DNA of 64,000 nt from positions 496,001 to 560,000 of the forward strand of contig CANMWQ010000001.1 of NCBI GenBank assembly GCA_947501685.1. Direction: 5' to 3'. Origin of the DNA: an uncultured Litoreibacter sp. (GTDB taxonomy: Bacteria > Pseudomonadota > Alphaproteobacteria > Rhodobacterales > Rhodobacteraceae). A program made the translations under genes and the position numbers. Under the pieces are notes generated by a model. The model searched no databases, was not told where the DNA came from, and saw nothing but the letters and a program-made list of their open reading frames with translations. Position 1 is the first letter of the stretch; the number at the start of each line of letters is the position of its first letter. This document shows positions 40,153 to 60,772 of the stretch, piece by piece.

Positions 40153-40236
40153 GGGCGACAGGCCGCAAGGTGTGGCAGGGGACTGTAACTCCCTCGCGGA
40201 GACGCACGCCTGGTTCGATTCCAGGGTCGCCCACCA
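40153..40236 (+). tRNA. tRNA-Tyr (anticodon GTA)
   Basis: The cloverleaf can be drawn completely: acceptor GGGCGAC pairs with GTCGCCC, the anticodon loop CTGTAAC gives GTA, the long variable arm (about 14 nt) is as expected for tyrosine, the T arm is CCTGG-TTCGATT-CCAGG, and CCA is encoded. The last 20 bases are the integration target of the island that follows, and the tRNA stays intact after insertion. Confidence 0.95.
40217..40236 (+). repeat. attL: left copy of island attachment repeat
   Basis: GATTCCAGGGTCGCCCACCA, the T-arm and acceptor 3' end of tRNA-Tyr, is repeated exactly at 57148-57167. It marks the left junction of the island. Confidence 0.9.
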
Positions 40237-40245
40237 TTTACCATA

Positions 40246-40287
40246 CAGCGTTGATTTTTATAGCTATTCAGCTTAATATCAACGCTG
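40246..40287. repeat. 10-bp inverted repeat beside attL
   Basis: CAGCGTTGAT at 40246-40255 and ATCAACGCTG at 40278-40287 are perfect inverted copies 22 nt apart. The element may be a hairpin ending the tRNA transcript or a site for an excision factor; there is no T run. Confidence 0.5.
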
Positions 40288-40297
40288 AGATGGCATA

Positions 40298-40329
40298 TTT
40301 TCGATACATATCACTCGGTTTTCGATACA
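40298..40329 (+). repeat. Left pair of candidate integrase arm sites
   Basis: TTTTCGATACA occurs at 40298-40308 and again at 40319-40329, exactly 21 bp apart (two helical turns). The same pair, with the same spacing and orientation, recurs at 57032-57063. The second copy ends 1 nt before the integrase ATG, so bound integrase could repress its own gene. Confidence 0.7.
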
Positions 40330-40330
40330 A

Positions 40331-41953
40331 ATGACTACTGAGAAGAAGGTGAAATACCTGAAAATTGACCGTGGAAGGTATTATTACCAGCGCCGCGTAC
40401 CCGATCAGTTTCGGGACTTATTGGGGATATCCAAGTGGCAGATGCCATGTGGAGATGTCAGCTACGCCAAGGCTGTTCAGCTTATTGTTAACTGGGCTGA
40501 AGAACACGATGAACTGTTGGCTAAGCTGAAGACATCAGAGGGCTACGATGCCATTGAAGCTGAATTGCTGCGGTCCGAAGACGCGGCGGACAAGTTCGTC
40601 GAAGAACTTAATGATGGTATCCGAGTGTTTCAAAATGGTGAAGATTGGGCTCCACTTGACGAGCTTGCTAAGCCTTGGATGAATGCTCTCGAAGAAGTTG
40701 CCAAGCTTGACGAATATCATTCAAAGGCGAAAGCCCCAGAGCATGAAGTCCTTCAGCTACGCGCCCAGATAGATCACTCAAAACGCGGCGGTCCGAAGTT
40801 GGGGAAGATCAAACTTTCGCCCTACCCTGAGTTCATAGAATTGGCACAGGTTCACGCATCCGATGCGCATTTGGTCGAATTTGAGTTCACGCCCCATCCA
40901 CCAAGACCGATGTCAGATGAACGCTACCATGACGAGCTAAACAGTATTTTCCAGCAGTATTTTGGTCCAAGCCCAACACCGCCATCTGATCCCGATGATC
41001 GGGACGAATACATGTTTGCCAAGCATCGTATCGAACGAAAGATTTCAAGCGTCACACCTGACAAGAACAGCATCACAGCCGTCTTGGAGAAGTACTGTAA
41101 ATTCAACTCCATTCGGAGTGGGACGCGATCAAAGTATCGTCGTGAGATTGCCAGGCTCACGGCGATTACAGGCGATGTTCCGTTGGGACACGTGCGCACT
41201 GAAGACTTGAAGCAGTTGAGAGACGGTTTGATCGGGACAATTCAAGTCGCCTCGATCCAAGCCATCTTCACACCAATCAAAGGGATTTTTGCGTTCGCTT
41301 TCGATGAAGACATCATTCCAGTGAATCCGATGCTTGGTGTCAAATTGCCCAAGGACAAGAGACCAATCGAAGAAAGGAAGTGGAAGTCTTTCACGCCGAC
41401 TGAGGTTATACGAATACTCAATGCCGCTGAGGAACTATGGTCTACACCCGTGCAGGGATTGTCTGATGCTCGAAGAGAAGCGATCCATATGGTGGTGCGT
41501 GTTTTGACCTATTCAGGAATGCGCCCAGTGGAAGTGATTAGGCTGGAACCTGATGATGTGACCGATAGCTGGATTCGCATCACTGGAAGCAAGACGGAAA
41601 GCTCAACTCGCTTTGTTCCCCTGCACCCTGAGATTGCTGATTTTCCAGCGTGGGTTGCATCAGGTGGGCTTGAGACCTTCCAGTCGATCAAAACGGATCA
41701 AGTTGGATCGGTACGTCACAATTTTAGTCGATTGCTTCGGAAAAAGATGCAAAGTCCAATCACCGACCCGCAGAAGGCTCTCTACTCACTCAGGTCCACC
41801 TTCGTGAATGCGATGCGTCGCGCTGGTGCGGACATACAGGTCCAAAGAGCCATCCTAGGCCACAAGGAAGCTGGTGCGATCCGTCACTACGACGACGGAC
41901 CTGAATTTGAAGTGAAACGCAAATGGGTGGAAGCGACTGACCCGAAGCGTTAA
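40331..41953 (+). CDS. int: Tyrosine-type site-specific integrase
   Basis: A 540-aa tyrosine recombinase, probably responsible for inserting the island at tRNA-Tyr. The N-terminal 240 residues are a long variable region. The SAM-like core-binding domain is at about 245-330, and the catalytic domain follows with Arg in LTYSGMRPVEVIRLEPDD, box II YSLRSTFVNAMRRAGADIQVQ with AILGHKEAGAIRH, and the nucleophile Tyr in RHYDDG. The usual His of HxLR is Tyr here, a common variant. It sits 94 nt from attL and reads into the element. Confidence 0.92.
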   Translation: MTTEKKVKYLKIDRGRYYYQRRVPDQFRDLLGISKWQMPCGDVSYAKAVQLIVNWAEEHDELLAKLKTSEGYDAIEAELLRSEDAADKFVEELNDGIRVFQNGEDWAPLDELAKPWMNALEEVAKLDEYHSKAKAPEHEVLQLRAQIDHSKRGGPKLGKIKLSPYPEFIELAQVHASDAHLVEFEFTPHPPRPMSDERYHDELNSIFQQYFGPSPTPPSDPDDRDEYMFAKHRIERKISSVTPDKNSITAVLEKYCKFNSIRSGTRSKYRREIARLTAITGDVPLGHVRTEDLKQLRDGLIGTIQVASIQAIFTPIKGIFAFAFDEDIIPVNPMLGVKLPKDKRPIEERKWKSFTPTEVIRILNAAEELWSTPVQGLSDARREAIHMVVRVLTYSGMRPVEVIRLEPDDVTDSWIRITGSKTESSTRFVPLHPEIADFPAWVASGGLETFQSIKTDQVGSVRHNFSRLLRKKMQSPITDPQKALYSLRSTFVNAMRRAGADIQVQRAILGHKEAGAIRHYDDGPEFEVKRKWVEATDPKR

Positions 41954-41969
41954 CGTCGCGCTCTTTGAC

Positions 41970-43199
41970 TCAACCTAGATTGAAGCTCATCTGTTTCTTC
42001 AGACGAATTATGTCATCACGTCCAATAGTGTGGGCTTTGCGTCGCTCACCCCCACTACTGGTAACAACTTCAAGATCAGCGCTGTCCATAATAGCACTGT
42101 GGATATCATCACTATGCGCGGGTGTCTGATTGTAAATCGATCTGTAAAAGTCGCTTACCAACAGCGTATCCCCACCCTCATGGATCAAACGAGCTATGTC
42201 GTCAGGCAACTCATCACGTGCTGTTGCACGAGCCGACTGATCGAAAAGGTACAGAGAACCTTTCTCGTGTTCGGGGTTGAAGGCCAGCATCCTGAGACCA
42301 GCCCGTCCAAAGTGTGCTTGCTCACTGCTATTGTCGTGAAGCACATCGTTGTAGACCTGTCTGGCGCGGTCGGCGTTAGCGAAATGGATGAACCAGTACC
42401 GCCATCCATCTGGATTATGTATCGAGAAAGGGCTGACAAAAGGCGCACACCGACGGAAGACATCAAAAACCAAACGCTCAATCGCACCTAGCCATTCGGT
42501 CTTGTTCACCATCCCCTCAGGCACCATCTTCCAGTCAATTCCAGCACCCAAGTGCCTCAGATTGCGCCTTAGACTTTCTGGGTCAGCTTGGCTTAGATAG
42601 GTGAGCAAAGACTGGATGGAATAGGTGTAGAAAAGCTCGACTGATTTTTCAGACGCCAACAAGCGCGTAATGGTGTCACGCTCTACCTGCGAGTATCCGC
42701 ATTGATCCAAATTGTAGATAATGTTTCGGCACTTCTTGGCTTCGATTGCAGCCTGAAAGGTTGGAAGCATAGCCTCAAACTCACCACATTCGAATTGAAT
42801 TTGGAGTTCAATGCCCGTGCCAGGCTGCTGGGCTTGGTAGACCAAAGGGGCGATATTCGTCTTCAGGAGTTCAACCGCGTCACGGTTGGCATCATTCATC
42901 AAAAATAGGCAATGGACCTCCACTGAGGGCATGTTCTGTGCTGCTCTAGTCACGTTGATCTCGGCCACAGTATCGATCAGGGTTGATAAAAATATTAACG
43001 GCGAACCTTCTTCGCCGCCATCATATACCCCTGCACCCGCAAATCCATCCACCACCGCTAGGCGGAAATGTCGATGGATCGGCGCTTTGCAACGTTCGAG
43101 CAGATACCGTCGGAAGTATTCTGCTAGGACCTTATGTTTCTTGCGCGAATGTTCCTCTAAGACGGCCCCATCGACCCATTGGTATGGCTTGCTAACCAA
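41970..43199 (-). CDS. tcmP: Three-Cys-motif partner protein TcmP
   Basis: A 409-aa protein of the TcmP family, known only as the neighbour of DUF5131 (Gp37/Gp68) proteins. The N-terminal half carries DGAVLEEHSRKKHKVLAEYFRRYL and VVDGFAGAGVYDGG near residue 49, which resembles motif I of Rossmann methyltransferases, with LDQCGYSQVERDTITRLLAS near 174. A nucleotide- or SAM-binding enzyme is plausible; no activity has been shown to my knowledge. It is 13 nt downstream of the DUF5131 gene on the same strand. Confidence 0.88.
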   Translation of the reverse strand: MVSKPYQWVDGAVLEEHSRKKHKVLAEYFRRYLLERCKAPIHRHFRLAVVDGFAGAGVYDGGEEGSPLIFLSTLIDTVAEINVTRAAQNMPSVEVHCLFLMNDANRDAVELLKTNIAPLVYQAQQPGTGIELQIQFECGEFEAMLPTFQAAIEAKKCRNIIYNLDQCGYSQVERDTITRLLASEKSVELFYTYSIQSLLTYLSQADPESLRRNLRHLGAGIDWKMVPEGMVNKTEWLGAIERLVFDVFRRCAPFVSPFSIHNPDGWRYWFIHFANADRARQVYNDVLHDNSSEQAHFGRAGLRMLAFNPEHEKGSLYLFDQSARATARDELPDDIARLIHEGGDTLLVSDFYRSIYNQTPAHSDDIHSAIMDSADLEVVTSSGGERRKAHTIGRDDIIRLKKQMSFNLG

Positions 43200-43212: not shown

Positions 43213-43989
43213 TTATAAATGAGCAACACGAGGCATTTCATCCCAAGTTTTACCTCGATAAGTCCTGCCATTTTGCTTCTTTGACCGCCGCTTATTGTCC
43301 TTGCCCCAAGCCCCCCACTGTTTGAAAAAGAATGCCGTGTCATCTCGTTGACAAGCAGCGTGAATTTGATCGATCCACGGCTCCTTGATTGGACGTGCGC
43401 GTGGACCGCTTTCTCCACCAACAATCGCCCAGTCGATGGCAGTCAAATCCACGTTTCCAACTGGCCCAATTAGTGGCTCAAAGGAAATAAACCGAATCTT
43501 CGCGTCTACCTTTCGCAATTCATCAATGCGATCTACGACGGTAGAGTCTTCTACGCTGGTACCAAGCCAGACATTGTCAAGAACACCGCCATCCCAAGAC
43601 CCTGTAAACTCAGCCATTCTGTCGGGCCGTTTCGTTAGCACCTGGTAGCTGTGCCAAGGTGTGTCGGCCATTACACGCCAGACCTCGGCGATAAAGTCCA
43701 TTGAGACCTCAGGATGAAACAAGTCACTCATGGAGTTTACAAAAATCTTGCGTGGCTTCTTCCATGTAGCTGGGATGCGGAGCGCTTTGCGATCTTCATG
43801 AACGATGCCTTTCCAAACGCTCCTACCGCCAGATTTGCGAGTTAGCCCAGCGTATTTTTCAACACCCATGGCTTCCAGTCTGTAGGCCATTTGCATCGCG
43901 TAGCAGTTGGTGCACCCAGATGACATAATGCTGCAACCCGCGACTGGGTTCCAAGTAGAATCTGTCCACTCGATTGCTGTTTCACTCAT
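43213..43989 (-). CDS. DUF5131 (phage Gp37/Gp68) three-Cys-motif protein
   Basis: A 258-aa protein starting MSETAIEWTDSTWNPVAGC. The three cysteines at residues 19, 26 and 29 (C-x6-C-x2-C), then CYAM, resemble a radical-SAM-like iron-sulfur motif but with wider spacing. Family hallmarks NSMSDLFH, LTKRPDRM, WLGTSVED and FEPLIGP are present. Found in phages and mobile elements, usually beside TcmP. Biochemical role unknown; a modification enzyme for nucleic acid or tRNA is my inference. Confidence 0.88.
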   Translation of the reverse strand: MSETAIEWTDSTWNPVAGCSIMSSGCTNCYAMQMAYRLEAMGVEKYAGLTRKSGGRSVWKGIVHEDRKALRIPATWKKPRKIFVNSMSDLFHPEVSMDFIAEVWRVMADTPWHSYQVLTKRPDRMAEFTGSWDGGVLDNVWLGTSVEDSTVVDRIDELRKVDAKIRFISFEPLIGPVGNVDLTAIDWAIVGGESGPRARPIKEPWIDQIHAACQRDDTAFFFKQWGAWGKDNKRRSKKQNGRTYRGKTWDEMPRVAHL

Positions 43990-44064: not shown

Positions 44065-44481
44065 TCACAAAAACATTGCCCTAATTACACCCAGATGTCG
44101 GCTTGGGCTGAAATCAGCCTTTGCATTGCTGACAATGTGGTTGATCTCAAGTCGGTAAAGTTCACTGACTGCCAATGCCATCTTCTCTGGTGATGGCTGC
44201 GCTTTCAGATCGTTCACCACCTGCTGCACGGCTTCAACAACCAGCTTGAGACGGTCGATGTCGATAGTAGACGGCTTTGTCACAATGCTGCCCTCCACAA
44301 GTGCCGATGCGGAAACCTCATAAAGCGCGGCCAGCATTTCCAAACGATCCATGGTGACCTTGGAAAGCCCATTCTCCATGCGTGAGAAGCTGGCACCGCT
44401 GATGCCAATGCGTTCGGCGGCTTGTTCCAAGGTAAAGCCCGCCTGTTCTCTGGCTTGTTTGAGGGTCTGGTGAATTGCCAC
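44065..44481 (-). CDS. XRE-family HTH regulator (minus arm of a divergent switch)
   Basis: A DNA-binding protein with a canonical helix-turn-helix: LKQAREQAGFTLEQAAERIGISGASFSRMENG, then a C-terminal helical domain of about 75 aa. I prefer the GTG at 44481 because an operator-like palindrome (44516-44530) lies inside the longer frame that would start at ATG 44580. It is divergent from a second small HTH protein, with two matching palindromes between, the layout of a CI/Cro-type switch. Confidence 0.8.
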   Translation of the reverse strand: MAIHQTLKQAREQAGFTLEQAAERIGISGASFSRMENGLSKVTMDRLEMLAALYEVSASALVEGSIVTKPSTIDIDRLKLVVEAVQQVVNDLKAQPSPEKMALAVSELYRLEINHIVSNAKADFSPSRHLGVIRAMFL

Positions 44482-44515
44482 GGCTGTCGTCTCTTCGTCG
44501 GTTTCACTTTCATCC

Positions 44516-44530
44516 TTACATTTTTTGTAA
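44516..44530. promoter_or_regulatory. Operator-like palindrome O1
   Basis: TTACATTTTTTGTAA, arms TTACA/TGTAA around 5 nt. On the minus strand it overlaps a TGTTAC -10 that is 17 bp from TTGTCA, so a bound repressor would block the minus-strand HTH gene. Confidence 0.6.
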
Positions 44531-44580
44531 CACTCGGGAAGACAATTCGTGACAAACCAAAAGAGTGGGTAGCGAATCAC

Positions 44581-44595
44581 TTACGAAAAACGTAA
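44581..44595. promoter_or_regulatory. Operator-like palindrome O2
   Basis: TTACGAAAAACGTAA, arms TTACG/CGTAA around 5 nt, the same TTACN7GTAA form as O1 and 65 bp from it. It ends 2 nt before the ATG at 44598 of the plus-strand HTH gene. Confidence 0.6.
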
Positions 44596-44597
44596 GT

Positions 44598-44855
44598 ATG
44601 GAAGGCATGAAACTCAATGACTTCCTGATCGCTGAAGGTACATCCATGGGCCAGTTCGCCAAGGCCGTCGGCACAACGACTGCCACAGTCAGCCGTATCG
44701 CTGATGGGACCGTAGTGCCGCGTAGAGCCCTCATGAAACGGATTAACCAAGCGACGGGAGGCTTGGTCACACCGAATGACCTAGTGGGCATCTACTGCAA
44801 GGAAGTCTGCCCGAATATCGACGCATCAAAAGACGGGGACGCAAACAATGAGTGA
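44598..44855 (+). CDS. Small Cro/YdaS-like HTH protein
   Basis: An 85-aa protein, with alternative start at 44607, carrying one helix-turn-helix (LNDFLIAEGTSMGQFAKAVGTTTATVSRIADG at the start). It pairs divergently with the larger HTH gene, and its coding region begins right after operator O2. The stop overlaps the start of a small membrane protein by 8 nt. Confidence 0.75.
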   Translation: MEGMKLNDFLIAEGTSMGQFAKAVGTTTATVSRIADGTVVPRRALMKRINQATGGLVTPNDLVGIYCKEVCPNIDASKDGDANNE

Positions 44856-45120
44856 TGAGGCACTGGGCGGTTGGGTCATCTTTGGCATTATTGCCGCTGT
44901 GCTGGTCGGCTCGGGGTTCTGGGTCGCCGACGGCATCGAACGCAATCAAGTGCAGGATTGTTTGCAGGCCGCACCGAACAACCGTCAGGATCATGTTTAC
45001 ATGACAGATGTAGTCAGCGTTGAGGCGTGGCGTCGTTACCCGAATGGCGAGGCGACTTGGATCGTGGAGTATCGGGTCAGCTACACTGATCAGATCAAGT
45101 CAACATATTGCCGCTGGTGA
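44848..45120 (+). CDS. Small single-TM protein, hypothetical
   Basis: A 90-aa protein with one N-terminal membrane helix (GGWVIFGIIAAVLVGSGFWVA, residues 7-27) followed by a 60-aa soluble domain with two Cys. It is translationally coupled to the HTH gene through an 8-nt overlap and is followed by the lyase gene after 43 nt. Not recognised. Confidence 0.65.
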   Translation: MSDEALGGWVIFGIIAAVLVGSGFWVADGIERNQVQDCLQAAPNNRQDHVYMTDVVSVEAWRRYPNGEATWIVEYRVSYTDQIKSTYCRW

Positions 45121-45163
45121 CTACGGATTGCCCTTCAGATCGCCACCATTAAAAAGGACGCCA

Positions 45164-45973
45164 ATGATCAATCGATTGACCAAAGCCTGCAAACTCGGCC
45201 TGTTCACCGCTGCCCTGTCATCGCCCGCACAAGCGGATCGGGTCTACGAAATCCTCGACAACACCCGCATCGAAGCTGGCCTGTCCCATGGACAGCCGTA
45301 CCAGTTTGCGATGGTCAGTGGGTTCACACGGCGTGGAGAATTGGCACAGCGGTTCGAGATCAGGCACGGCGATTGCGGCGGCACACAGGGCTGGGATGAC
45401 TGCTCGAACGACCGTGGGAGGGTGGAACGCAAGGAACGCCCTAAGAACGTGTTCTCGGAGACTGGTGAGGGCATCTGGTACGGATACTCAATTTACATCC
45501 CTGCTGACTTCGAAAGCCTTGGGCGGGCCAATACGCACCTGTCACAGGCCAAGGTCGAGGGCGAAGGGATGCCGCTCTGGCAACTGACGTTTAACGACAA
45601 CCCTTACATCCTCTATTCCGACGACACCTATTGCAGTCTCGGTTCGATGGCGATGTGGCGGGGCGGATGGAATGATGTGACCGTCTATGCCCACTATGGC
45701 GAAGGCGGGGAACATGCTTACTTCCAGCTATACCGTAACGGTGTCCTGCTCTGCGAACGGAACCGTCCGCTGATGCATCCGTCCTTGTGGGGGCGCGATC
45801 AAGAGATCGGCTTTAAGTATGGCATCTATAATTCGTTCGTGAGCCGTTACCTGCGTACCAACGACCGCCTCCCGACCCACGTGATTTTATACGACGAGAT
45901 GCTGGCTGGATCGCGGCGTGAGGATGTTGATGTCAGAATGCGTGAAGCCGCTGGGTTGCCACCTGTTGATTGA
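45164..45973 (+). CDS. Exported polysaccharide lyase (heparin-lyase-like fold)
   Basis: A 269-aa protein with a signal peptide ending at PAQA. The body has the beta-jelly-roll pattern of the PF14099 polysaccharide lyase family: GIWYGYSIYIPADF, HLSQAKVEG, and the C-terminal FKYGIYNSFVSRY, including the conserved Lys-Tyr-Gly-Ile-Tyr. It probably cleaves an acidic polysaccharide outside the cell, with the polymer unknown. Start ATG 45164 follows AAAAAGGAC. Carried as island cargo. Confidence 0.8.
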   Translation: MINRLTKACKLGLFTAALSSPAQADRVYEILDNTRIEAGLSHGQPYQFAMVSGFTRRGELAQRFEIRHGDCGGTQGWDDCSNDRGRVERKERPKNVFSETGEGIWYGYSIYIPADFESLGRANTHLSQAKVEGEGMPLWQLTFNDNPYILYSDDTYCSLGSMAMWRGGWNDVTVYAHYGEGGEHAYFQLYRNGVLLCERNRPLMHPSLWGRDQEIGFKYGIYNSFVSRYLRTNDRLPTHVILYDEMLAGSRREDVDVRMREAAGLPPVD

Positions 45974-46331
45974 CGCTACCCGTCGGTTGGTCGGGCCTGA
46001 CCAAAGACAGGCCATTTATGAAAGGTTGCTTCAGCGAAATGCAATCAGGTCTGAACTTGGCATTCGCCGCCTAAATATTCCTGAACTATACCGAAGGAAG
46101 AAACGGATGATTGCGGAAGCCCGATATGATGAGATCATGGAACCTTATGTCGATTCCGCCTTTAGAAAGATAGACTGGCCTGACAGCTTCACAGGTCGGA
46201 TTTTGTTGGGCGTCAAGACGTATCGTGATTGTGCAACCCAATGTGAGCAGGAGACAGGATATGCAAACCCACGTGACGGCACTCCTGATATCCTCAAGCT
46301 GATCCATCAGTATGTTGCACCATTGACCTGA
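45918..46331 (+). CDS. Hypothetical protein, 137 aa
   Basis: A plus-strand frame overlapping the end of the lyase gene by 56 nt; a later start (45927 or within the first 20 codons) would remove most of the overlap. The protein reads well from LLIDATRRLVGPDQRQAIYERLLQRNAIR onward, with a charged helical middle and no membrane segment. No family is recognised. Tail to tail with the ribbon-helix-helix gene. Confidence 0.55.
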   Translation: MRMLMSECVKPLGCHLLIDATRRLVGPDQRQAIYERLLQRNAIRSELGIRRLNIPELYRRKKRMIAEARYDEIMEPYVDSAFRKIDWPDSFTGRILLGVKTYRDCATQCEQETGYANPRDGTPDILKLIHQYVAPLT

Positions 46332-46490
46332 TCACGCCTCCTCAGCTTCTGGTAGGCCGTACCACCACTGCTCAACGGCTTCGTCGAGCAACGCTCCCAA
46401 TGGGATGCGAGATGCTTCCTTAACCTCTTTCAAACGGTCGTAGGTGACCGTCTTGACGGCGCGAATGGTGACCTGTTTACGATCTGACAT
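46332..46490 (-). CDS. Ribbon-helix-helix protein, 52 aa
   Basis: A small basic/acidic protein, MSDRKQVTIRAVKTVTYDRLKE then SRIPLGALLDEAVEQWWYGL, with the beta-strand plus two-helix layout of Arc/MetJ-type DNA-binding proteins. ATG 46490 has a perfect AGGAGG upstream. RHH proteins of this size are often antitoxins, but no toxin gene is adjacent. A relaxosome or plasmid-control role is possible. Confidence 0.65.
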   Translation of the reverse strand: MSDRKQVTIRAVKTVTYDRLKEVKEASRIPLGALLDEAVEQWWYGLPEAEEA

Positions 46491-46678
46491 GATGCAATCC
46501 TCCTTGCCTGTATTTAGGGTTTGAAGGGCAACTGCATTGCGGTTGCTGTAGGTTTCCATGGACGTTCGCGACCAGCGAGAGAACCGCACACACTATTAGT
46601 CATTAACGCCCAAATACCACGTCAGCATAGCAATGCATTTGCATAGCTTACGGTGGCGAACTGCGAAATTGGAGGTGC
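46491..46678. other. Intergenic stretch, divergent promoters presumed
   Basis: AT-rich spacer between the RHH gene and the recombinase unit. It contains a near-palindrome around 46625-46647 (GCATAGC repeated on both sides of ATGCAT). No gene or clear promoter is identified. Confidence 0.3.
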
Positions 46679-46834
46679 ATCAAAACCGAAATTGACCCCG
46701 CACTTGAAAAATCTCGATGTCCAACCGAGTTTCAGATTGAGGCCGACAGATACTTCGAAGTCTGTCGAAACAGTCCCAATCTCCCGATGTGTGTCGGTGT
46801 ACTAGTTAAGGTTTTACATGTTGAAGGTTCATGA
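46679..46834 (+). CDS. Possible 51-aa leader ORF with non-standard start
   Basis: A well-formed reading frame (KTEIDPALEKSRCPTEFQIE, then ADRYFEVCRN and CVGVLVKVLHVEGS) ends in TGA overlapping the ATG of the recombinase gene, the usual sign of coupled translation. No ATG, GTG or TTG opens it; GGAGG lies 3 nt before an ATC codon, so the start could be ATC or ATT or may have been lost by mutation. Not recognised. Confidence 0.3.
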   Translation: MKTEIDPALEKSRCPTEFQIEADRYFEVCRNSPNLPMCVGVLVKVLHVEGS

Positions 46835-47883
46835 TTTCAAAGACGGTTGAACAAAAGATCGCATCTGGGGATGTCATCCCATACAGGAGAGTAAGCACTC
46901 CAGATCAGGCAGAAGACGGCTACCGTCATCAGCTTCAGGTGATCAAATCCATATACCCAAGTTTTAGTATCAGACACTCAACAGACTATGACTATAAAGA
47001 GGTCATGTCTGGACTAGCAAACATGGGTAAGCGTTCGGCATCCAAGATTGGCACTGCCATCGGTAAGCTGAAACGACACCCTCATTCCATCATCTTGGTA
47101 TCAGACGCAGATCGCATTTCACGTCGTCAGGATGTCTTTGAGATGATCCAGAAACAGGGCTTGGGTCACCGCATCTTTGTCGCTTCATCTGGCCTTAGTC
47201 TGGATGAAGTCGTTGCCTTGGGACATCACAAAAAGATCGAACAACAGACACAGGAATACAAAGAAGCCTGCCGTCTGGGCCAGCAACGGTACCGTGACAA
47301 CGGTGGCATCATCGGCTCACCTGACATCAAGCACCACTCAAAGTCAGGTGCACAGAAGAAATCTGAACAGGCAAAAGAAAGGAAGGTAGGTATCTGCAAG
47401 ATCATCTCTCGTCTGACCTACGCCAACCGAGGGCAGAAACCGTCACACGGCGAAATCTGCGATGTGCTTCGGGATAGCGAAATCCGCACTGGCCAAGGGT
47501 ACTTCTTTACTGCACCTAAGTTGCAACAACTTAAGAAAGGCATGGCATCTGAATGGGACTACGCCATGGATAGCTGGCATCGCCCGCGTCGTCGCATCCG
47601 CGAGATTATCGAAGAATGGCAGAGAGAGATACGTCGTAAGAACAAAGTCTGCCGTATCCGCAGGCTCATCTCTCACTGCCAAATCGAGCTAAATCGGAAG
47701 CGTCAGCGACAGCTTTCCACGAAGAGGCTATTGGCCTTTCTTTCTAACAATGTTTTTTGGCATGTCGTTGTGGGTCGAAGCTCTATCCCCTTGAGGAGTC
47801 CAATCTGGTCAACCACAAGTGAGTGGGCCAAAGGCAAAAGTCGTGATGGATGTCGAGGGCCACCAATCATTCGCTCAGGTTGA
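46831..47883 (+). CDS. Serine-recombinase-like protein
   Basis: A 350-aa protein whose N-terminal 130 residues match a resolvase catalytic domain: YRRVSTPDQAEDGYRHQLQ (nucleophile Ser in RVS near residue 22) and SDADRISRRQ with the conserved Arg pair. The C-terminal part is very basic with several predicted helices, and the last 45 residues look unlike protein of this type, so an old frameshift near the end is possible. It may act in DNA rearrangement of the island. Confidence 0.65.
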   Translation: MISKTVEQKIASGDVIPYRRVSTPDQAEDGYRHQLQVIKSIYPSFSIRHSTDYDYKEVMSGLANMGKRSASKIGTAIGKLKRHPHSIILVSDADRISRRQDVFEMIQKQGLGHRIFVASSGLSLDEVVALGHHKKIEQQTQEYKEACRLGQQRYRDNGGIIGSPDIKHHSKSGAQKKSEQAKERKVGICKIISRLTYANRGQKPSHGEICDVLRDSEIRTGQGYFFTAPKLQQLKKGMASEWDYAMDSWHRPRRRIREIIEEWQREIRRKNKVCRIRRLISHCQIELNRKRQRQLSTKRLLAFLSNNVFWHVVVGRSSIPLRSPIWSTTSEWAKGKSRDGCRGPPIIRSG

Positions 47884-48016
47884 TCCCTGTTGTCGCTAAA
47901 GACACTGCAGCACTCCGATGTCGTTCTCTCTGCATTGAAGCGGTGGATCAAAGGTTTGCATGACGCCATACCTGATGCATGTTTGCTTTATCGACGGATT
48001 GCAATATGAACGAAAA

Positions 48017-50207: not shown

Positions 50208-50729
50208 TTAGTGTGGCGACCGCCCAATCGCGATCATGAGATGGTGCTGTTGGTGATGCGCACCGATTGTCATCAACCCAAAGAATCCCAGTCCCAGCAC
50301 TTGATTCAACTCTCCATCTGACCCGACCTGAACCAGCATCGATGCGCCATTATCTATTTGCCCAGCGGTGACGGTCCAATCCGATGATCCCTGCAACATC
50401 GGGCTATGTGCCAACACCATGCGTCTGATGGACGATGCTACCACGTCATCACCCGTGACTGTGAACATCACACTCAACCCATCGACCTTTCGCTCAACCG
50501 ATGCCCTCGTCGTCACGTTGTCCATATCCACGAGATGATCACGCAAAGCTTTGATATCGACCTGCGCCCAATCCGTGTCTGGGTCATCACGCAGCAGGGT
50601 GACGATCTCAGCAATCGCCGCGAACTGGGACTGACCCGTTTCATTAGGTGACCCCGACGTATGCGCATGTTGTGCCATAGCACCCGATGCGACGAACATC
50701 ATGGCTGCTGATAAAAGACCTAGTTTCAT
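50208..50729 (-). CDS. Exported hypothetical protein of the metal-resistance region
   Basis: A 173-aa secreted protein with a signal peptide ending AMAQ and His-rich ends (HAHTSG and GAHHQQHHLMIAIGRSPH). A middle region of about 90 aa has alternating beta-type segments. I do not recognise the family. The His residues and location next to the copper and mercury genes suggest periplasmic metal binding. It is divergent from the Crp/Fnr regulator and may share its operator. Confidence 0.7.
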   Translation of the reverse strand: MKLGLLSAAMMFVASGAMAQHAHTSGSPNETGQSQFAAIAEIVTLLRDDPDTDWAQVDIKALRDHLVDMDNVTTRASVERKVDGLSVMFTVTGDDVVASSIRRMVLAHSPMLQGSSDWTVTAGQIDNGASMLVQVGSDGELNQVLGLGFFGLMTIGAHHQQHHLMIAIGRSPH

Positions 50730-50778
50730 TGAACACTCCTATTTCTTGATCATCCTAGCCAATTCCACTCTGATTCTT

Positions 50779-50794
50779 TATGATCTGGATCATA
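50779..50794. promoter_or_regulatory. FNR/DNR-like palindrome before the Crp/Fnr gene
   Basis: TATGATCTGGATCATA is a perfect 16-bp palindrome containing TGAT-N4-ATCA, the core of FNR/DNR-type sites. It ends at the first base of the ATG at 50794 and lies between the two divergent genes. Autoregulation and control of the exported protein gene are inferred. Confidence 0.5.
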
Positions 50795-51360
50795 TGTTTT
50801 CTGATCCCTTCTCCCATCTGCCCAGGACTGCGTGTCGCACAATTGAAATGCAGAAGGGTGACGTGCTGTTTCGCCAGACTCAGACAACATCGGGACTTTA
50901 CCGTGTCGTCTCTGGGTGCGTGACGTTGCAACGAACTGGACTGGGTGGCGATATTTTGACCTTGCACAGGGCATTGTCGGGCGGGCTGTTTGCCGAGGCT
51001 TCAGTCTTCTCAGCGACATACCACTGCGATGCGATTTGCACCGAGGCTGGGAGCGTCATCAAGATCGCAAAGATAGATGTGATTGCAACGATGCAATCCA
51101 ATCCTGCGTTTTCTGAGGGTTTCACAAGGTTGCTTGCTGTTCAGGTCCAACAGTACCGCGCACACATCGAGTTGCTGGCAATCCCGTCAGCCAAAGAACG
51201 CATTCTGGCGGCTGTTCAGGCAGGCTACCTCGATGCTACGGTCACCGAGTTGGCCACCCGCATCGACCTCAGTCACGAAGCCTGCTACCGCGCACTGCGG
51301 GCATTGTGTGATGACGGTCGTGTGGTTCAAACGGGACGTGGACAGTACAGCCTAGCGTAA
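50794..51360 (+). CDS. Crp/Fnr family transcriptional regulator
   Basis: A 188-aa regulator with a cyclic-nucleotide-binding-like beta-barrel (KGDVLFRQTQTTSGLYRVVSGCVTLQ) and a C-terminal winged helix, TVTELATRIDLSHEACYRALRAL. It lacks the four Cys of an FNR iron-sulfur sensor, so redox sensing of that type is unlikely. Start 50794 is chosen because a palindromic site lies just before it; longer in-frame starts exist. Neighbours suggest a role in metal or redox response. Confidence 0.82.
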   Translation: MFSDPFSHLPRTACRTIEMQKGDVLFRQTQTTSGLYRVVSGCVTLQRTGLGGDILTLHRALSGGLFAEASVFSATYHCDAICTEAGSVIKIAKIDVIATMQSNPAFSEGFTRLLAVQVQQYRAHIELLAIPSAKERILAAVQAGYLDATVTELATRIDLSHEACYRALRALCDDGRVVQTGRGQYSLA

Positions 51361-51388
51361 TCATTCAGATCAATTGGCTGATAGTCAG

Positions 51389-51796
51389 CTAAAGTGGCAC
51401 CGTCGGAGCTTCACTCATCAAGCTGTCCAGCATCGGGCATGAAGATGTCCCCTCATCACAACTCGCAGACAGGCTCTGTAAGGCCGCACGAAGTCGTTCA
51501 AGACTATCAATCTTGGCATTGATCGCAACTAGTTGGTCTTCGGCCATGCTCTTCACTTCCTTACAAGAACGGCCTTGCTCGTCGTTCAGTGAAAGCAACG
51601 TTTGGATGATCGACATCGGAAACCCAAGATCACGGCAACGCTTTACGAAACGCAATTTTGCGATTTCATCAGCGGTATACAGGCGTCGCCCCGCCGCCGA
51701 GCGATCGGGTTTCGGAACAAGCCCCTCACGTTCGTAATAACGGATCGTCTCAATGTGGACGCCGCTCTTCTGCGAAGCTTTCCCGATGGTAAACAT
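51389..51796 (-). CDS. merR: Mercury-responsive MerR regulator
   Basis: A 135-aa MerR-family activator: HTH MFTIGKASQKSGVHIETIRYYEREGL, long dimer helix, and Cys residues at RSCKEV and ASCDEGTSSCPML that correspond to the three Hg-binding Cys of MerR, with a slightly shorter loop. Start at 51796. It is divergent from merF, with a MerR-type promoter between. A related heavy-metal sensor cannot be fully excluded. Confidence 0.87.
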   Translation of the reverse strand: MFTIGKASQKSGVHIETIRYYEREGLVPKPDRSAAGRRLYTADEIAKLRFVKRCRDLGFPMSIIQTLLSLNDEQGRSCKEVKSMAEDQLVAINAKIDSLERLRAALQSLSASCDEGTSSCPMLDSLMSEAPTVPL

Positions 51797-51801
51797 TTCT
51801 C

Positions 51802-51832
51802 TTGCTCCTGTAGTCGCTACAGGAGCTATGAC
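51802..51832 (+). promoter_or_regulatory. MerR-type promoter of merF, 19-bp spacer
   Basis: -35 TTGCTC at 51802-51807 and -10 TATGAC at 51827-51832 are separated by 19 bp. The spacer overlaps a perfect inverted repeat, GCTCCTGTAG and CTACAGGAGC around TCG (51804-51826). An overlong spacer with a centred palindrome is the hallmark of MerR activation. Confidence 0.8.
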
Positions 51833-51903
51833 TGGATCGCGGGTGCCAATGCAAATCAAACTTTGGCTATAACCGCACAGTCGGGACGACGAGGGATAGC
51901 AAT

Positions 51904-52110
51904 ATGAAAAATAAACTACTGGCATTTGGCATTGGAGGAACGCTGCTTGCTGCGCTGTGTTGCTTTACGCCGTTGCTACCAATCGTTTTGACCGCACTCG
52001 GTCTTACTGGGTTATTGGGTGTGCTGTATAACGACGCAGTTTTGCTGCCAATTCTGGCAGGGTTCCTTACTCTTACGGGGTACGCGATATGGCAACGACG
52101 GAAACAGTAG
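51904..52110 (+). CDS. merF: Mercury transport protein MerF
   Basis: A 68-aa inner-membrane protein with two helices and the Cys pair ALCCFTPLLP at about residues 18-27, which relays Hg(II) across the membrane in mer operons. MerF normally feeds MerA; no mercuric reductase is in this window. Overlaps the next gene by 22 nt. Confidence 0.9.
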   Translation: MKNKLLAFGIGGTLLAALCCFTPLLPIVLTALGLTGLLGVLYNDAVLLPILAGFLTLTGYAIWQRRKQ

Positions 52111-52313
52111 TTGTTCTTGAGTCCACACTGACCTGTCCCGACTGCGGGCATGTCGAAACTGAAATGATGCCAACAGATGCGTGTCAGTGGTTTTATGAAT
52201 GCAAGTCATGCCAAACTGTACTCAAGCCACTGAGCGGTGACTGCTGCGTTTACTGTTCATATGCAACGGTTCCTTGCCCCCCGATTCAAGAGGGCAAGTC
52301 CTGTTGTAGATGA
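52089..52313 (+). CDS. GDCCVxC-domain protein
   Basis: A 74-aa Cys-rich protein with an N-terminal CPDCGH/CKSCQ zinc-ribbon-like part and the motif GDCCVYCSY followed by CPPIQ, the signature of the GDCCVxC family often found beside MerR and MerF (some members contain selenocysteine; this one has Cys). Probably binds mercury or other soft metals in the cytoplasm; mechanism unproven. Confidence 0.85.
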   Translation: MATTETVVVLESTLTCPDCGHVETEMMPTDACQWFYECKSCQTVLKPLSGDCCVYCSYATVPCPPIQEGKSCCR

Positions 52314-52331
52314 AACGACTCCACTGAATTG

Positions 52332-52757
52332 TTAGTGGGGAAGGTTTCTGCTGGCTTGGACATCGCGTTCCCGCTCAGGCCAAGTTGATCTGATGTAAGC
52401 GAGGATATCCCATATCTCGTCATCGGTGAGTGTTTCGCCGAAACCTGGCATCCCGCTATTGAACCCAGTTACACCCCTGATCTCCAATGCAGCAGCGCCA
52501 CCGAGTTTGGTATACTCGAACAGCAGTTCATCATCATGGTGCCACGTGTGACCTGTCCCGTCATGCGGCGGGGCTGGAAGCACACCATCGGCGTTCGGGG
52601 ACTGCCAGTTCGGCTGTCCCTCCAGATTGGCACCGTGGCACGATGCGCAGTTGTCTGCATACAGACTTTGACCCGCAACGATGTCACGGTGATCCCAGTT
52701 GTGATCAGCGGCGGTTGGGGATGCCAAAGACAGCAAGATTGGGAACAGCCACCTCAT
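52332..52757 (-). CDS. Exported c-type cytochrome
   Basis: A 141-aa periplasmic cytochrome c with a signal peptide ending TAAD and one heme site, CASCH, plus a distal Met ligand in [24 protein letters not shown]. It is the last gene of the copper operon; the ATG overlaps the stop of the multicopper oxidase gene. It may accept electrons in copper oxidation or feed the respiratory chain. Confidence 0.88.
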
Positions 52758-54064
52758 GCCACGTTCACCCATGTGCGCATTCCGCCAACGGCATGGCTGA
52801 GCATATGGCAGTGCAGCAGCCAACGACCAGGGTTGTCGAAGACACAGATGACATCACGGCTTTCACCTGCGTCTACCAGAGTTGTGTCACGCAGATCACC
52901 CAAGGCACCATTCTTATCGACTTCATAGAAGTGGTGACCGTGCAGGTGGATGCCATGCGGGAACGAGGTATCGTTTACAAATGTAATCCGTACCGTCTCG
53001 CCATTCTGAAATGATCCGAACGGGTCGCCTTGTAGGTCTGAGACGTTGTTGAACGCCCAGATATTGTCGCCATCGTGGCGACCGCCCATTGCACCACCCA
53101 TCATCGTCAACGTCAGATGTTGCGTGGGATCAGCAGGTATTGGCAGATTAGGCGGCGACAGGGCCATGATCGGCCCACCCACCCTATCCGTATTTGTGCC
53201 CCTCACAGCCAGATCAGCCAACCGATATGGCCCCTGACGGGTCAGCATATCAAACCCAACGGGGCCAGTGACATCAACGATCAAGTCTGCCCGTTGTGCA
53301 GGTGCGAGGGTAAGCTCGGCCATAGGACGTGGCTCCGATAGAGCCATGCCATCCAAGGCCACAAGCAACCCGTTGACGCCGCTAACCGTTACAGGAAAAA
53401 TGCGATTCGTTGCTGCATTAATCAACCGAAACCTAACACGATCTCCAGTCTTCACCTGATCTTGGGACAAGAAAGCACGGGCGAAATTCCCCATGTAACC
53501 GCCATGGGCGACACTGTGCATATCGGTAAACTCTTTGGACAGGCTACCATCTTCCTGCATCTGCCAATCTGCCATCAACACGGTGATGTCATGGTCAATA
53601 TCAGGAGGAGTTTCATCCTCAACAATCAGTGGTCCCATCATGCCACGTGCGACTTGTTCATGAGAAATGTAATGCGAATGATACCAATAAGTGCCTTCGT
53701 CTGGCGGGACAAAGCTATAGGTTTTGGTATCGGAGGGTTCAATCAACTCCTGTGTCAGCATCGGCACACCATCCATCTGGTTTTCCAACCTGATGCCGTG
53801 CCAATGCACTGCGGTGCCTTCTTCAAGACCGTTCTCAACATTGATGTTCACACGCTCACCACGACGCACCCGCAGTTCGGGACCTGGCATTGATCCGTTG
53901 AAGCCCAGCATGGATGTCACACCACTTCCATCTGGTAGGATTTGTTGCGTCACCGCTTCTGCCTTCAATCGTAACGTATCTTCGGCTGCGAATATGGGCA
54001 TAGGTAAGATCGCGGTGGCTGAAACGGAGGCCAAGAAGTATCGTCTATTCATGTGGTGCCTCAT
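52754..54064 (-). CDS. Multicopper oxidase
   Basis: A 436-aa periplasmic oxidase. The N-terminal NRRYFLASV resembles a twin-arginine signal (start at 54064, alternatively 54052). Copper motifs are [28 protein letters not shown] and [14 protein letters not shown], giving type 1 and trinuclear sites. A Met/Gly-rich segment ([12 protein letters not shown]) may bind Cu(I). It probably oxidises Cu(I), as CueO does. The start overlaps copD by 4 nt. Confidence 0.92.
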
Positions 54065-54909
54065 GCTGGCAGAGTCAGGTGTGTTGTCAAAACAGCGGTC
54101 GTGCCAAGCACAGCAAGGATGATCAGCCATTCAACCGATATAGATTTGGAGAGATGGCTTGCAGCGGCTGAATCACCTGCTCGGAGCGCGGGAATGAACC
54201 GAAGTTTATTGGCCGCAGCTAACCCCAGCAGAGCAACTATGAGAAGAACCTTGATGATCAATGCTTGCCCGTATCCAGTCCCGATAAGTGCGGTGAACGA
54301 CCCAACAAGCTGGTAGCCCATGTAACCACCAACGATGATCAGCACGGGGACTGTGGCGGTCGCAACAACACCAAATCGATGCCCCACGTTCGCAGCCATG
54401 TTAAAGGTGTCGGGTAACGATGCCAGGCGTTTCAATGGAGTGAGAACACCGATCCACAGGGCGACGGTCAGCAAATGCAACGTCAAAGCGATGTCGAGCA
54501 GCGTCGTGTCTCGGCTAGAGACGTGTCCTACGTGATCGAATGACCAGATCGCCACGACTCCACCGAGAGCCGAGACCCAAGCTCCAACACGCCCCATGAA
54601 CAAGCCAGCGATCAACAGGCCGAGACCCACCAAACGCAATAGCAGTGCCGTACCGACAGGGGTCGTCCATAGCAGGCCCAGCATCTCTGGGTCAGTCATA
54701 CCGCTGAGATCACCCGTCAGGTTGGCTCCGCGTAATGAGAAGGCAAGGATGGTCGCCGCCAACCCTAGAACAGCGAATGCTGCGGCCAAACCACGTGTGC
54801 GATCTAGCCGAAACATCAGCGTCGCCATGACAGTGCCAGCCGCAGTCATCACGCCAAGGTAGAGGGCAAATTTTGTGACGATGGCCGCCAGACCGAACGC
54901 ATCAGGCAT
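54061..54909 (-). CDS. copD: Copper resistance membrane protein CopD
   Basis: A 282-aa inner-membrane protein with about eight helices and the CopD domain (HLLTVALWIGVLTPLKRL and VGHRFGVVATATVPVLI). CopD works with CopC in copper handling, classically import. Two nt separate it from copC. Downstream gene overlap of 4 nt. Confidence 0.88.
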   Translation of the reverse strand: MPDAFGLAAIVTKFALYLGVMTAAGTVMATLMFRLDRTRGLAAAFAVLGLAATILAFSLRGANLTGDLSGMTDPEMLGLLWTTPVGTALLLRLVGLGLLIAGLFMGRVGAWVSALGGVVAIWSFDHVGHVSSRDTTLLDIALTLHLLTVALWIGVLTPLKRLASLPDTFNMAANVGHRFGVVATATVPVLIIVGGYMGYQLVGSFTALIGTGYGQALIIKVLLIVALLGLAAANKLRFIPALRAGDSAAASHLSKSISVEWLIILAVLGTTAVLTTHLTLPA

Positions 54910-54911
54910 CG

Positions 54912-55253
54912 TTATTCGACAGTGAAGCTGAAGCTACCGTTCAGGGCATGGCCATCGACACCCAACCCACGCCATTCGATCACATAGGTTCCTGCTCCCA
55001 TGTCGTGCATTGGCAAGGCAAACTCCTGTGTGAACGCCGTTTGTTCGCCAAGGTCCATGTCCATACTGTGGGTGTCGGCATGTGTGATCGCGACCCGCGT
55101 CAGGCGGATGTCACCTTTGAAGTTCATCAAGACTTCGGTCGGCATCTCTGTGACGATGGCCTCGTTAGCTGGTGTCGTTGCGTCTAGGGGTGAGTGTGCC
55201 ATCGCACCTGTCGCCCAAATCCCGATCATGCCTGCGAGTAGAATAGCTTTCAT
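54912..55253 (-). CDS. copC: Periplasmic copper-binding protein CopC
   Basis: A 113-aa CopC/YobA-type beta-barrel protein with a signal peptide ending AMAHSPL; the mature N-terminal His is the copper ligand in this family. Mature sequence continues TTPANEAIVTEMPTEVLMNF. It has His and Met residues near DTHSMDM and PMHDM for copper. Binds copper in the periplasm and passes it to CopD. Confidence 0.9.
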   Translation of the reverse strand: MKAILLAGMIGIWATGAMAHSPLDATTPANEAIVTEMPTEVLMNFKGDIRLTRVAITHADTHSMDMDLGEQTAFTQEFALPMHDMGAGTYVIEWRGLGVDGHALNGSFSFTVE

Positions 55254-55280
55254 TGTTGTTTCCAGTCTTGTTGTTGGAGA

Positions 55281-55715
55281 TCAGTTGATCCCGTTGGCAC
55301 GTTGCAGTTCTCGAATGTAGGCAATGATCATGGTGACATCGCCCCGTGTTACACCCTCAACTGGCGGCATGTCGCCAAACGGCCAGTGGTGGCCCCTAAC
55401 GCCCATGGCAGCAGCCCTTTGGAAGGCTTCATCACCGTGATGGCTTGGTTCATAGATAACGTGGACCAGCGGCGGTGCGACGCCATCTTGGCCCGCCGCA
55501 TTCAGCCCGTGGCAAGCCGCGCATTTGGCCTCATAGGCGAGTTGCCCGATCTGGGCATTCTGCGACAACGTGTCAGGCAGCAGGACATTTGCAAGAACTC
55601 CGTCTTCCATGGCGATGGCAGCGTTTGTCGTTGTGGTGTGCGGTACTGTGGGCCACATCGCGTAGCCCACACCACCTGCAACCAAAATAGCAGCAATAGC
55701 GATAGTCGATTTCAT
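55281..55715 (-). CDS. c-type cytochrome, membrane-anchored or exported
   Basis: A 144-aa cytochrome c with an N-terminal hydrophobic segment (uncleaved anchor or signal) and one heme motif, CAACHG, in the pattern AYEAKCAACHGLNAAGQDGVAPPL. His/Met-rich residues in EPSHHGDE and FGDMPPVEGV suit heme ligation. I prefer ATG 55715 over the GTG nine bases upstream. Second gene of the copper operon. Confidence 0.87.
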   Translation of the reverse strand: MKSTIAIAAILVAGGVGYAMWPTVPHTTTTNAAIAMEDGVLANVLLPDTLSQNAQIGQLAYEAKCAACHGLNAAGQDGVAPPLVHVIYEPSHHGDEAFQRAAAMGVRGHHWPFGDMPPVEGVTRGDVTMIIAYIRELQRANGIN

Positions 55716-55788
55716 TGAAGGCACTGCTCCTCACATCTTTCTGCCATCGCTAAGCCTTCCAGTTGGTGGAGGGTCAAACGCTTTTTTA

Positions 55789-56544
55789 TCACAGCTTTGA
55801 GAGCATCCAGATTGCCATACCGATCATCATCAGGTTCTCGGTAAGCGACACGAACCCAAGTGGAACTTTGCTGTCACCGCCGACACAGGCGCACTTGAGT
55901 TCGCGTTTGTCGATGTAGACCGCCTTGAACACACTGATCGCGCCGATGCTTGCCACAAACAACGCGGCTGGTGCAGACAACCATGTGAGAACGCCCGCCA
56001 TCATGAGCAGCCCCGCACCCGTCTCAACAAACGGATAGATATATCCATATCGAACCCACCGCTGAGCCAACAGGTCATAATTCAGGAACATGGTGGCGAA
56101 CCGTTCAACATCTTGCAGTTTCTGTAGACCCAACAAGACCATTGAAATCGAGATAAACAACTCAACCGTCCGCCCAGTGAACATGGTGCCAAGGATGAGC
56201 CAGGTGACTGCAACAGCCATCAACGCAGCGACCGTGAACAAGGCAACCACGGGCTTATAGGTCGTGGCATCATCAGCTTTGGTGGCTTTCCCAAAGTATG
56301 CATTTAGATCGTCGAAGCCACCAATGCGGGTTTCACCAATGAACGTCTGTGGCGTCGTCTTTACACCATGCTTGGCTTTGAACGCATCAACCTCGTCACG
56401 GCTGGTGAGATGGCGATCATCAACTTGAAAGCCCTGTCGTTCCAGCAAGTCTTTCGACTTCAATCCGTAAGGACACATGTGATCGGTCATCACCATCCGA
56501 TAGAGGGTCGCAGTTTTGTTGGCGGTATCCTTGGGCATGGTCAT
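55789..56544 (-). CDS. Glutaredoxin-MauE fusion membrane protein
   Basis: A 251-aa protein whose first 90 residues form a glutaredoxin (monothiol-like active site MCPYGLKS, then TPQTFIGETRIGGFDDL). It is joined to four membrane helices of the MauE/DoxX type ending near residue 251, with a CACVGG motif. MauE proteins support disulfide formation; the fusion may reduce periplasmic or copper-bound thiols. It heads the copper operon under a CueR-type promoter. ATG 56544 has AAGGAAAAA upstream. Confidence 0.88.
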   Translation of the reverse strand: MTMPKDTANKTATLYRMVMTDHMCPYGLKSKDLLERQGFQVDDRHLTSRDEVDAFKAKHGVKTTPQTFIGETRIGGFDDLNAYFGKATKADDATTYKPVVALFTVAALMAVAVTWLILGTMFTGRTVELFISISMVLLGLQKLQDVERFATMFLNYDLLAQRWVRYGYIYPFVETGAGLLMMAGVLTWLSAPAALFVASIGAISVFKAVYIDKRELKCACVGGDSKVPLGFVSLTENLMMIGMAIWMLSKL

Positions 56545-56605
56545 TTTTTCCTTACGCAGGTGCGGGCACCCATCAGAAAGGCACCCTTGAAACTCATTCA
56601 TCATC

Positions 56606-56636
56606 AACCTAATCTCTCCAGTAACTGGAAGGTCAA
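56606..56636 (-). promoter_or_regulatory. CueR-type promoter of the copper operon, 19-bp spacer
   Basis: Read on the minus strand: -35 TTGACC (56631-56636), 19-bp spacer (56612-56630) holding the imperfect palindrome TTCCAGTTACTGGAG, and -10 TAGGTT (56606-56611). It closely parallels CueR-activated promoters such as copA. It is positioned between the operon's first gene and the divergent regulator. Confidence 0.8.
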
Positions 56637-56648
56637 GAGGTGAGTTCT

Positions 56649-57032
56649 GTGAATATTTCTGCTGCATCGAAGGCAGCGGGTCTCCCCGTCAAAACCGTGC
56701 GTTACTACGCTGACATCGGCCTTGTTCAGGCTCCGTCGCGTTCCGATGCAGGGTATCGCACCTATGATGATGCTTCTGTCAGAAAGCTCGTCTTCATCCG
56801 AAGATCACGAGAGTTTGGCTTCACCATCGAAGAGTGCCGTGAACTCCTCGGACTATACCAGGATCAGGACCGCACCAGTTCCGAAGTGAAACGCATCGCA
56901 TCCAAGCGTTTGGAAGAGATCGAAGAGAAGCAACGTGAACTTCAATCGCTCCATGATGAGTTAGCTCACCTAGTGACATCTTGCCGTGGTGATCATCGCC
57001 CCGATTGTCCGATCATCGATTATCTGGGTTAA
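56649..57032 (+). CDS. cueR: Copper-responsive MerR-family regulator CueR
   Basis: A 127-aa activator, HTH SAASKAAGLPVKTVRYYADIGLV, dimer helix, and the metal-binding loop CRGDHRPDCPI with two Cys, as in CueR. GTG 56649 is preferred over 56640 because AGAGGTGAG lies at the right distance and CueR proteins begin MNIS. Divergent from the copper operon, which it should activate with Cu(I). Its stop lies at the first of the right-end arm sites. Confidence 0.88.
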   Translation: MNISAASKAAGLPVKTVRYYADIGLVQAPSRSDAGYRTYDDASVRKLVFIRRSREFGFTIEECRELLGLYQDQDRTSSEVKRIASKRLEEIEEKQRELQSLHDELAHLVTSCRGDHRPDCPIIDYLG

Positions 57033-57063
57033 TTTCGATACAAAGGTTGCAATTTTCGATACA
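57032..57063 (+). repeat. Right pair of candidate integrase arm sites
   Basis: ATTTCGATACA at 57032-57042 and TTTTCGATACA at 57053-57063 are 21 bp apart, the same sequence, spacing and orientation as the left pair at 40298-40329. The AT-rich 57064-57147 region has no gene. Confidence 0.7.
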
Positions 57064-57147
57064 AATACTCTACGGTAAGGAAATTGCATCACCTATTTTT
57101 CCTTATTTCTATAGTTTGATTGGCATCATTGAATTGATGCTAAATTT

Positions 57148-57167
57148 GATTCCAGGGTCGCCCACCA
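57148..57167 (+). repeat. attR: right copy of island attachment repeat
   Basis: Exact copy of the last 20 bases of tRNA-Tyr, GATTCCAGGGTCGCCCACCA, without the rest of the tRNA. It marks the right end of the island; chromosomal sequence resumes at 57168. Confidence 0.9.
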
Positions 57168-60768: not shown

Positions 60769-60772
60769 AGGC

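Follow-up and report, generated by a model that had tools for sequence, protein, structure and literature searches.

Among the described systems closest to the locus studied here are the tmRNA-borne genomic islands moved by a jumbo phage (PMC12595487), ICEMlSym(R7A) of Mesorhizobium, whose integrase lowers its own expression (PMC11963761), and the tyrosine recombinases with an arm-binding domain, which in the Tn916 subgroup consists of three strands and one helix (PMC8138268). Here, we analysed a stretch of 64,000 nucleotides from an uncultured Litoreibacter sp. (GCA_947501685.1, contig CANMWQ010000001.1, positions 496,001 to 560,000), hereafter the window, in which all positions are counted from the first letter. 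It carries at tRNA-Tyr an element of 16,931 bp that we read as a site-specific integrative genomic island, which would recombine at attachment (att) cores, use arm sites, and exchange its cargo block by block. We give this reading a probability of about 0.86. The element is of an ordinary kind, and its delimitation is unusually good. Designations such as G020 and L124 are our handles for genomes and loci.

Borders of the element and its relatives

The tRNA-Tyr gene (gta; 40153..40236, forward strand, ARAGORN) is intact, and its last 20 nt, from the T-loop to the CCA end, form the left att core (40217..40236, forward). The same 20-mer returns without mismatch at 57148..57167 (forward), and the match grows to 23 nt if one mismatch is allowed. 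No further site with up to 3 mismatches occurs in the window (100 shuffles gave 0), nor is there a third copy at up to 2 mismatches in the 16 contigs of this genome, which is 98.99% complete. Counted with a single att copy, the element spans 40237-57167. The open reading frame (ORF) of a tyrosine integrase (40331..41953, forward, PF00589) starts 94 nt inside the left core. At 40244..40256 (forward) lies what we take to be an IHF-like sequence, read by eye, with one mismatch to the consensus YAANNNNTTGATW. The G+C content of the element is 0.521, against 0.591 in the left flank and 0.596 in the core genome from 78.6 kb onward (Mann-Whitney P = 6e-9; 1-kb windows, 16 vs 91). An earlier note, made from the letters of this DNA, had described a complete tRNA-Tyr island with these exact repeats, an integrase directly inside its left end, an AT-richer interior, and a tRNA left whole; its coordinates were right, and each of these points held when checked, including the proposed G+C comparison in 1-kb steps.

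The note had also proposed a search for the empty site, and such a site exists in a relative. In G020, which belongs to the same genus, tRNA-Tyr is followed directly by 173 bp that are 86% identical to the right flank of the element (57168..57340, forward), and deleting 40237-57167 reproduces this arrangement. Since G020 is of another species, this is the empty site of a relative and not of a sister strain. The tRNA-Tyr flank is present in 20 of 20 same-genus relatives (21 of 21 with this genome), and downstream DNA was examined in 17 of them, over 4 to 20 kb each; only G010 showed an integrase of this family (tblastn, E 1e-15). Among the compared genomes, we found neither an empty site lacking part of the interval nor island sequence continuing past 57167 in close relatives.

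The element is one of nine that have both exact 20-nt cores on one contig, and the eight others, likewise bounded, complete with G020 the argument for an integrative island. They range from 996 bp to 19.9 kb: besides the 16,931 bp of this one, 19,142 bp in G400, 13,068 bp in G462 (Yoonia litorea, via L063), 19,928 bp in G466, 14,286 bp in G224, 13,159 bp in G709, 5,622 bp in G069, 4,206 bp in G394, and 996 bp in G682. Searches with the integrase returned 7 loci in Tateyamaria, Yoonia litorea, Pseudoruegeria, Roseobacter cerasinus, and an uncultured Rhodobacteraceae bacterium, and further loci in other genomes of the same family. The integrase is full-length in six of the nine elements and truncated in G069, G394, and G682. 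The possibility that those of G394 and G069 are catalysis-free "mini-integrases" was rejected, since the alignment shows loss of the C-terminus; together with ORFs after the G069 integrase that resemble insertion sequence (IS) transposase by eye, this marks both as decayed elements. The remnant in G682 (L124) retains both cores, both of the repeat pairs described below, and a truncated integrase, and an integrase of its class might still move it. In G461 (L062 and L112), the left end is like that of this element, and the right end, which lies on a different contig, is nearly the same as the right end of G466 (L108/L109). This reflects either the swapping of ends between elements or the presence of two elements.

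Paired repeats and the integrase

Both ends of the element carry a pair of 11-nt direct repeats whose second copy lies 21 bp downstream of the first. On the left, TTTTCGATACA occurs at 40298..40308 and again at 40319..40329, 1 nt before the integrase start codon; on the right, TTTCGATACAA at 57033..57043 is followed by the second repeat at 57054..57064 (all forward). Among spacings of 11-45 bp, 21 bp gives the best 10-nt repeat pair in all 19 distinct left ends (with one tie) and in all 14 right ends (with three); 20 left ends were taken and counted as 19, G465 and G686 being identical in letters and contig position, so that they look like one genome. The left pair starts 59-64 nt from the left core (69 in one case), the right pair ends 80-84 nt from the right core, and each of the nine elements that have their two ends on a single contig carries such pairs at both. 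Within an element the two ends tend to share their repeat motif, which tends to vary from one element to another: the true pairing ranks first of 120 for five classes, and over the nine elements 25 of 20000 shuffles reach the observed score. For this comparison, the search for pairs was limited to distances of 54-68 and 74-90 nt from the cores; G461, G463, G437, and G530, which have their ends on different contigs, were left out, as was G131.

We consider that the 21-bp-spaced pairs are best read as putative arm sites of the integrase. Three loci weigh against this: G273 (L147), a tRNA-Tyr remnant with stop codons, lacks the 21-bp pair (its best is at 37 bp), one left repeat of G464 is damaged, and the two ends of G131, on separate contigs, differ in motif class, with two mismatches in the right core. 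G219 (L146), also at tRNA-Tyr, has the 21-bp pair. Among 28 related integrases elsewhere, pairs were found at 12 bp in 11, at 13 bp in 3, and at 21 bp in none, with a weak tie (8/10) at 21 bp in L162; these remained of 34 loci after six had been set aside, two because they lie at tRNA-Tyr and four because they were misplaced or at a contig edge, and the accompanying 60 rounds of shuffling kept base composition only. The 12-bp pairs lie around or just before the start codon (L149, L150, L152, L153, L160, L161, L164, L166, L168, L169, and L170), and these 11 integrases have a related N-terminal domain. In 8 of these loci we found a tRNA gene, and several of the integrases lie beside tRNA-Leu, -Ser, -Thr, -Val, or -Cys. 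Pairs of this spacing might help in the automatic delimiting of islands.

The integrase has 540 residues, with a putative arm-binding domain at about 1-70 and a catalytic part at about 354-520. The model of the N-terminal domain (predicted local distance difference test, pLDDT, 74.5) has the order strand-strand-helix-strand-helix, which would agree with the three-stranded sheet and helix of arm-binding domains; fold matches are weak, and Foldseek gave none below E 0.001. The full-length model reaches a pLDDT of 48. The integrase has one partial match in plasmid records (25%), one in phage records (22%), and no confirmed one in viral contigs. A one-residue recognition code, in which Gln or Arg at residue 20 goes with T or C in the motif, fits six classes; we leave it as an idea because the two Arg classes are mutual nearest relatives and integrases elsewhere follow it unclearly.

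In the open-licence literature, we found no print account of a 21-bp arm geometry with varying motifs, which would thus be new; nor did we find a paper joining a genomic island, tRNA-Tyr, an integrase, and Roseobacter, one joining a genomic island, tRNA-Tyr, and copper resistance, or one joining an arm-type integrase, a genomic island, a tRNA gene, and Alphaproteobacteria. Being confined to that literature, this is weak evidence of novelty.

Mosaic cargo and alternative readings

The cargo is a mosaic: compared with one sister, G400, its blocks show many-fold differences in synonymous divergence. The copper block (50208..57032) is about 95% identical to that of G400; near 50.2 kb, DNA identity between the two elements goes up from about 67% to 95%, and their match stops at 57032. 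Synonymous divergence from G400 is 0.99 for the integrase, saturated for the serine resolvase, and 0.01-0.37 for eight genes of the copper block. Since purifying selection acting on proteins is no ready explanation for a gap at synonymous sites, it appears that the block passed from element to element independently of the integrase and the resolvase. It encodes a 173-aa protein, CRP-like and MerR-type proteins, a cytochrome c, a multicopper oxidase, CopD, a CopC-like protein (below the NCBIfam cut-off), a further cytochrome c, a glutaredoxin-MauE protein, and CueR (above its curated cut-off), and it lies behind the resolvase in this element, G400, and G466.

The genes behind the integrase are of another kind. 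They encode a three-Cys-motif partner, TcmP (41970..43199, reverse; TIGR04474, 192 bits, cut-off 53), and a DUF5131 protein (43213..43989, reverse; PF07505). Both match the PADLOC candidate models PDC-M30 and PDC-M41, TcmP at 3e-24 to M30A and 7e-5 to M41A, and the DUF5131 protein as PDC-M41B and PDC-M30B; we take PDC to stand for a defence candidate, and the pair for presumed defence genes. In the same slot, G466 has an RmrA-like and a weakly RmrT-like protein; the right end of that element adds a type II restriction enzyme and a cytosine methylase. G462 has a DndB-like and an HNH protein (ORFs of sister elements were scanned in part).

Between the two blocks are encoded an XRE-type helix-turn-helix (HTH) regulator (44065..44580, reverse; 72% in G466), a 96-aa HTH-like protein below the Pfam cut-off with a 65% homologue in G466 (44565..44855, forward), which is a candidate regulator or directionality factor, a polysaccharide-lyase-like protein whose true start is probably further in (45020..45973, forward; PF14099), and an uncharacterised ORF with a 44% relative in G400 (45918..46331, forward). 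There follow a small ribbon-helix-helix-like protein, below cut-off (46332..46589, reverse), a protein with a weak serine-recombinase N-terminal match, also below cut-off (46831..47883, forward), an HTH and N6/N4 DNA methyltransferase (47960..49474, forward; PF01555, MTase_II), and the small serine resolvase (49467..50048, reverse; PF00239). Relatives of the resolvase (71-78%) stand in equal order and orientation in G400, G462, and G466; G224 and G709 have distant serine recombinases only. A palindrome upstream of it, near 50,097, was considered as a resolution site; its exact dyad occurs in this element only, and we make no claim for it. Pfam scans of 20 of the 22 ORFs of the element gave no relaxase, type IV secretion, or phage structural genes, the other two (44848-45120, 54912-55253) having been scanned with NCBIfam only. 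Neither did the scans give a match named alpA; the small HTH ORF at 44565-44855 might fill that role.

How far the element extends, and how its parts came together, can be read in other ways. The note's right limit, 57167, stands as the end of the element; it fails as the end of the variable region, since conserved synteny is back only at about 78.6 kb (on the window's scale), after a second accessory stretch of about 21 kb (57168-64000 and onward; L103, L104) with, by eye, an FGGY-type kinase, a class II aldolase, a HAD protein, sugar ABC transporters, and a transaldolase. One might take all 38 kb from tRNA-Tyr for a single larger island with 57148-57167 as an internal att copy: neither part is at this place in G018, where conserved synteny (genes read by eye: hisE, hisF) starts about 1.4 kb after tRNA-Tyr, and G+C is lowered in both, although at 0.567 the right part is closer to the core. 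Yet up to 84 kb there is no further att copy (the next best has 15 of 23 letters), so that an island closed by a third copy had to be rejected; 634 bp beyond the right att of G400 do not match this element's right flank, the right flanks of sister elements look unlike it by eye, and G020 carries the first 173 bp of that flank without the element. We find a single island of this size very improbable. We conclude that the site is a hot spot, in which the 17-kb element is one unit. Conserved synteny returned within the fetched stretch in 10 of the 17 relatives, 1.2 to 16.5 kb past the tRNA, and 7 of the 21 same-genus genomes, this one included, have any match to 57168-60768, some only to an IS-like piece. 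A degenerate sequence at 57390-57640 looks by eye like an IS3-type transposase remnant, with copies of about 70% in G003 and G008.

The repeat pairs could alternatively be sites of a directionality factor or repressor. The sites of directionality factors can be helix-phased direct repeats, according to PMC7498355, and the left pair borders directly on the integrase start codon, where an operator might be expected. This seems unlikely to us, given that the pairs stand at both ends of all nine two-ended elements, that no gene but the integrase was found common to all nine (blastp E 1e-5, ORFs of at least 80 aa), and that even the truncated G394, G069, and G682 retain the integrase N-terminus; we thus keep to putative arm sites. 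For the cargo, the earlier note held that the genes for metal resistance and those for DUF5131/TcmP had been acquired together, a conclusion that the comparison does not support. We reject a common ancestry of the whole cargo on account of the strongly unequal synonymous divergence of the blocks and of the content of G400, which has the same scaffold and copper block and in which TcmP and DUF5131 were not detected (blastp E 1e-5, tblastn E 1e-10). A milder version, in which the two groups of genes were assembled elsewhere and entered this genome in one event, the mosaic predating the entry, has in our view an even chance: both blocks now lie within one att pair, so the last integration may well have carried both, but a swap of cargo after integration is equally possible. 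Linkage is no proof of joint acquisition, since blocks in the same scaffold differ in age, and a general caution follows: genes within one att pair need not share a history.

Mechanism and relation to known systems

We propose that the tyrosine integrase recombines the 20-nt core of the element, a copy of the tRNA-Tyr 3' end, with the identical chromosomal core, by which the tRNA would stay whole at the left and the displaced 3' end would mark the right border. Its N-terminal domain probably grips four arm sites, one 21-bp-spaced pair per end, in a lambda-type-like manner, and, as the left pair lies against its start codon, the integrase may also repress itself. Cargo would be swapped block-wise between the fixed ends, with presumed defence genes behind the integrase and the copper block behind the serine resolvase. 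We recognised neither conjugation genes nor phage structural genes, so a helper, possibly a phage, a gene transfer agent, or a conjugative element, would be needed to carry the island from cell to cell. A more tentative idea, which we think rather doubtful, is that elements competing for the tRNA-Tyr attB in one bacterial family have diverged into five or six specificities of integrase and arm site but hold to one rigid geometry (pairs 21 bp apart, about 60 and about 82 nt from the core); we rate it slightly lower than at first, since one class is represented by left ends only and three classes differ by about one base. If true, each class would be excised only by its own integrase and the defence and copper blocks would be freely swapped; such a platform would combine insulated mobility with exchangeable cargo and offer natural data from which to read the arm-binding recognition code. 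In this base-exact family, the target stays constant while the N-terminal domain of the integrase and the sites presumed for it vary, which would allow arm-site recognition to be tested by swaps.

The element resembles the tmRNA islands of PMC12595487 in several respects: the gene of a tyrosine integrase lies at one end, the insertion site is the 3' end of an RNA gene, the direct repeats are short and exact, the cargo includes presumed defence genes, and transfer genes were not recognised. It differs from them in its site and repeat (tRNA-Tyr and 20 nt here, tmRNA and 14 nt there), in having no recognised alpA-like gene, and in carrying a copper block and a serine resolvase; the likeness is one of layout, and carriage by phage is a trait of theirs. 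The element sits at tRNA-Tyr and not, like the islands of that class, downstream of tmRNA. On a possible kinship with phage satellites, which would carry phage-derived packaging or interference genes, bear the lack of phage structural genes in the Pfam scans and the partial match (22%) of the integrase in phage records. As with IntS and attP of ICEMlSym(R7A) (PMC11963761), the integrase gene lies just inside attL with arm-type sites adjacent, putative ones in our case; there, five arm sites lie in a 283-bp attP and transfer is conjugative, whereas here there are two pairs spaced by 21 bp and no recognised conjugation genes. With no relaxase or type IV secretion gene in the scans given above, it does not qualify as an integrative conjugative or mobilizable element. 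Like the arm-binding-domain recombinases of PMC8138268, the integrase has an extra N-terminal domain ahead of the catalytic part; unlike them, it reaches 540 aa, with a long variable stretch after that domain. With its exact repeats, its adjacent integrase, and the empty site of a relative, the element belongs to the tRNA-site integrative islands with a tyrosine integrase.

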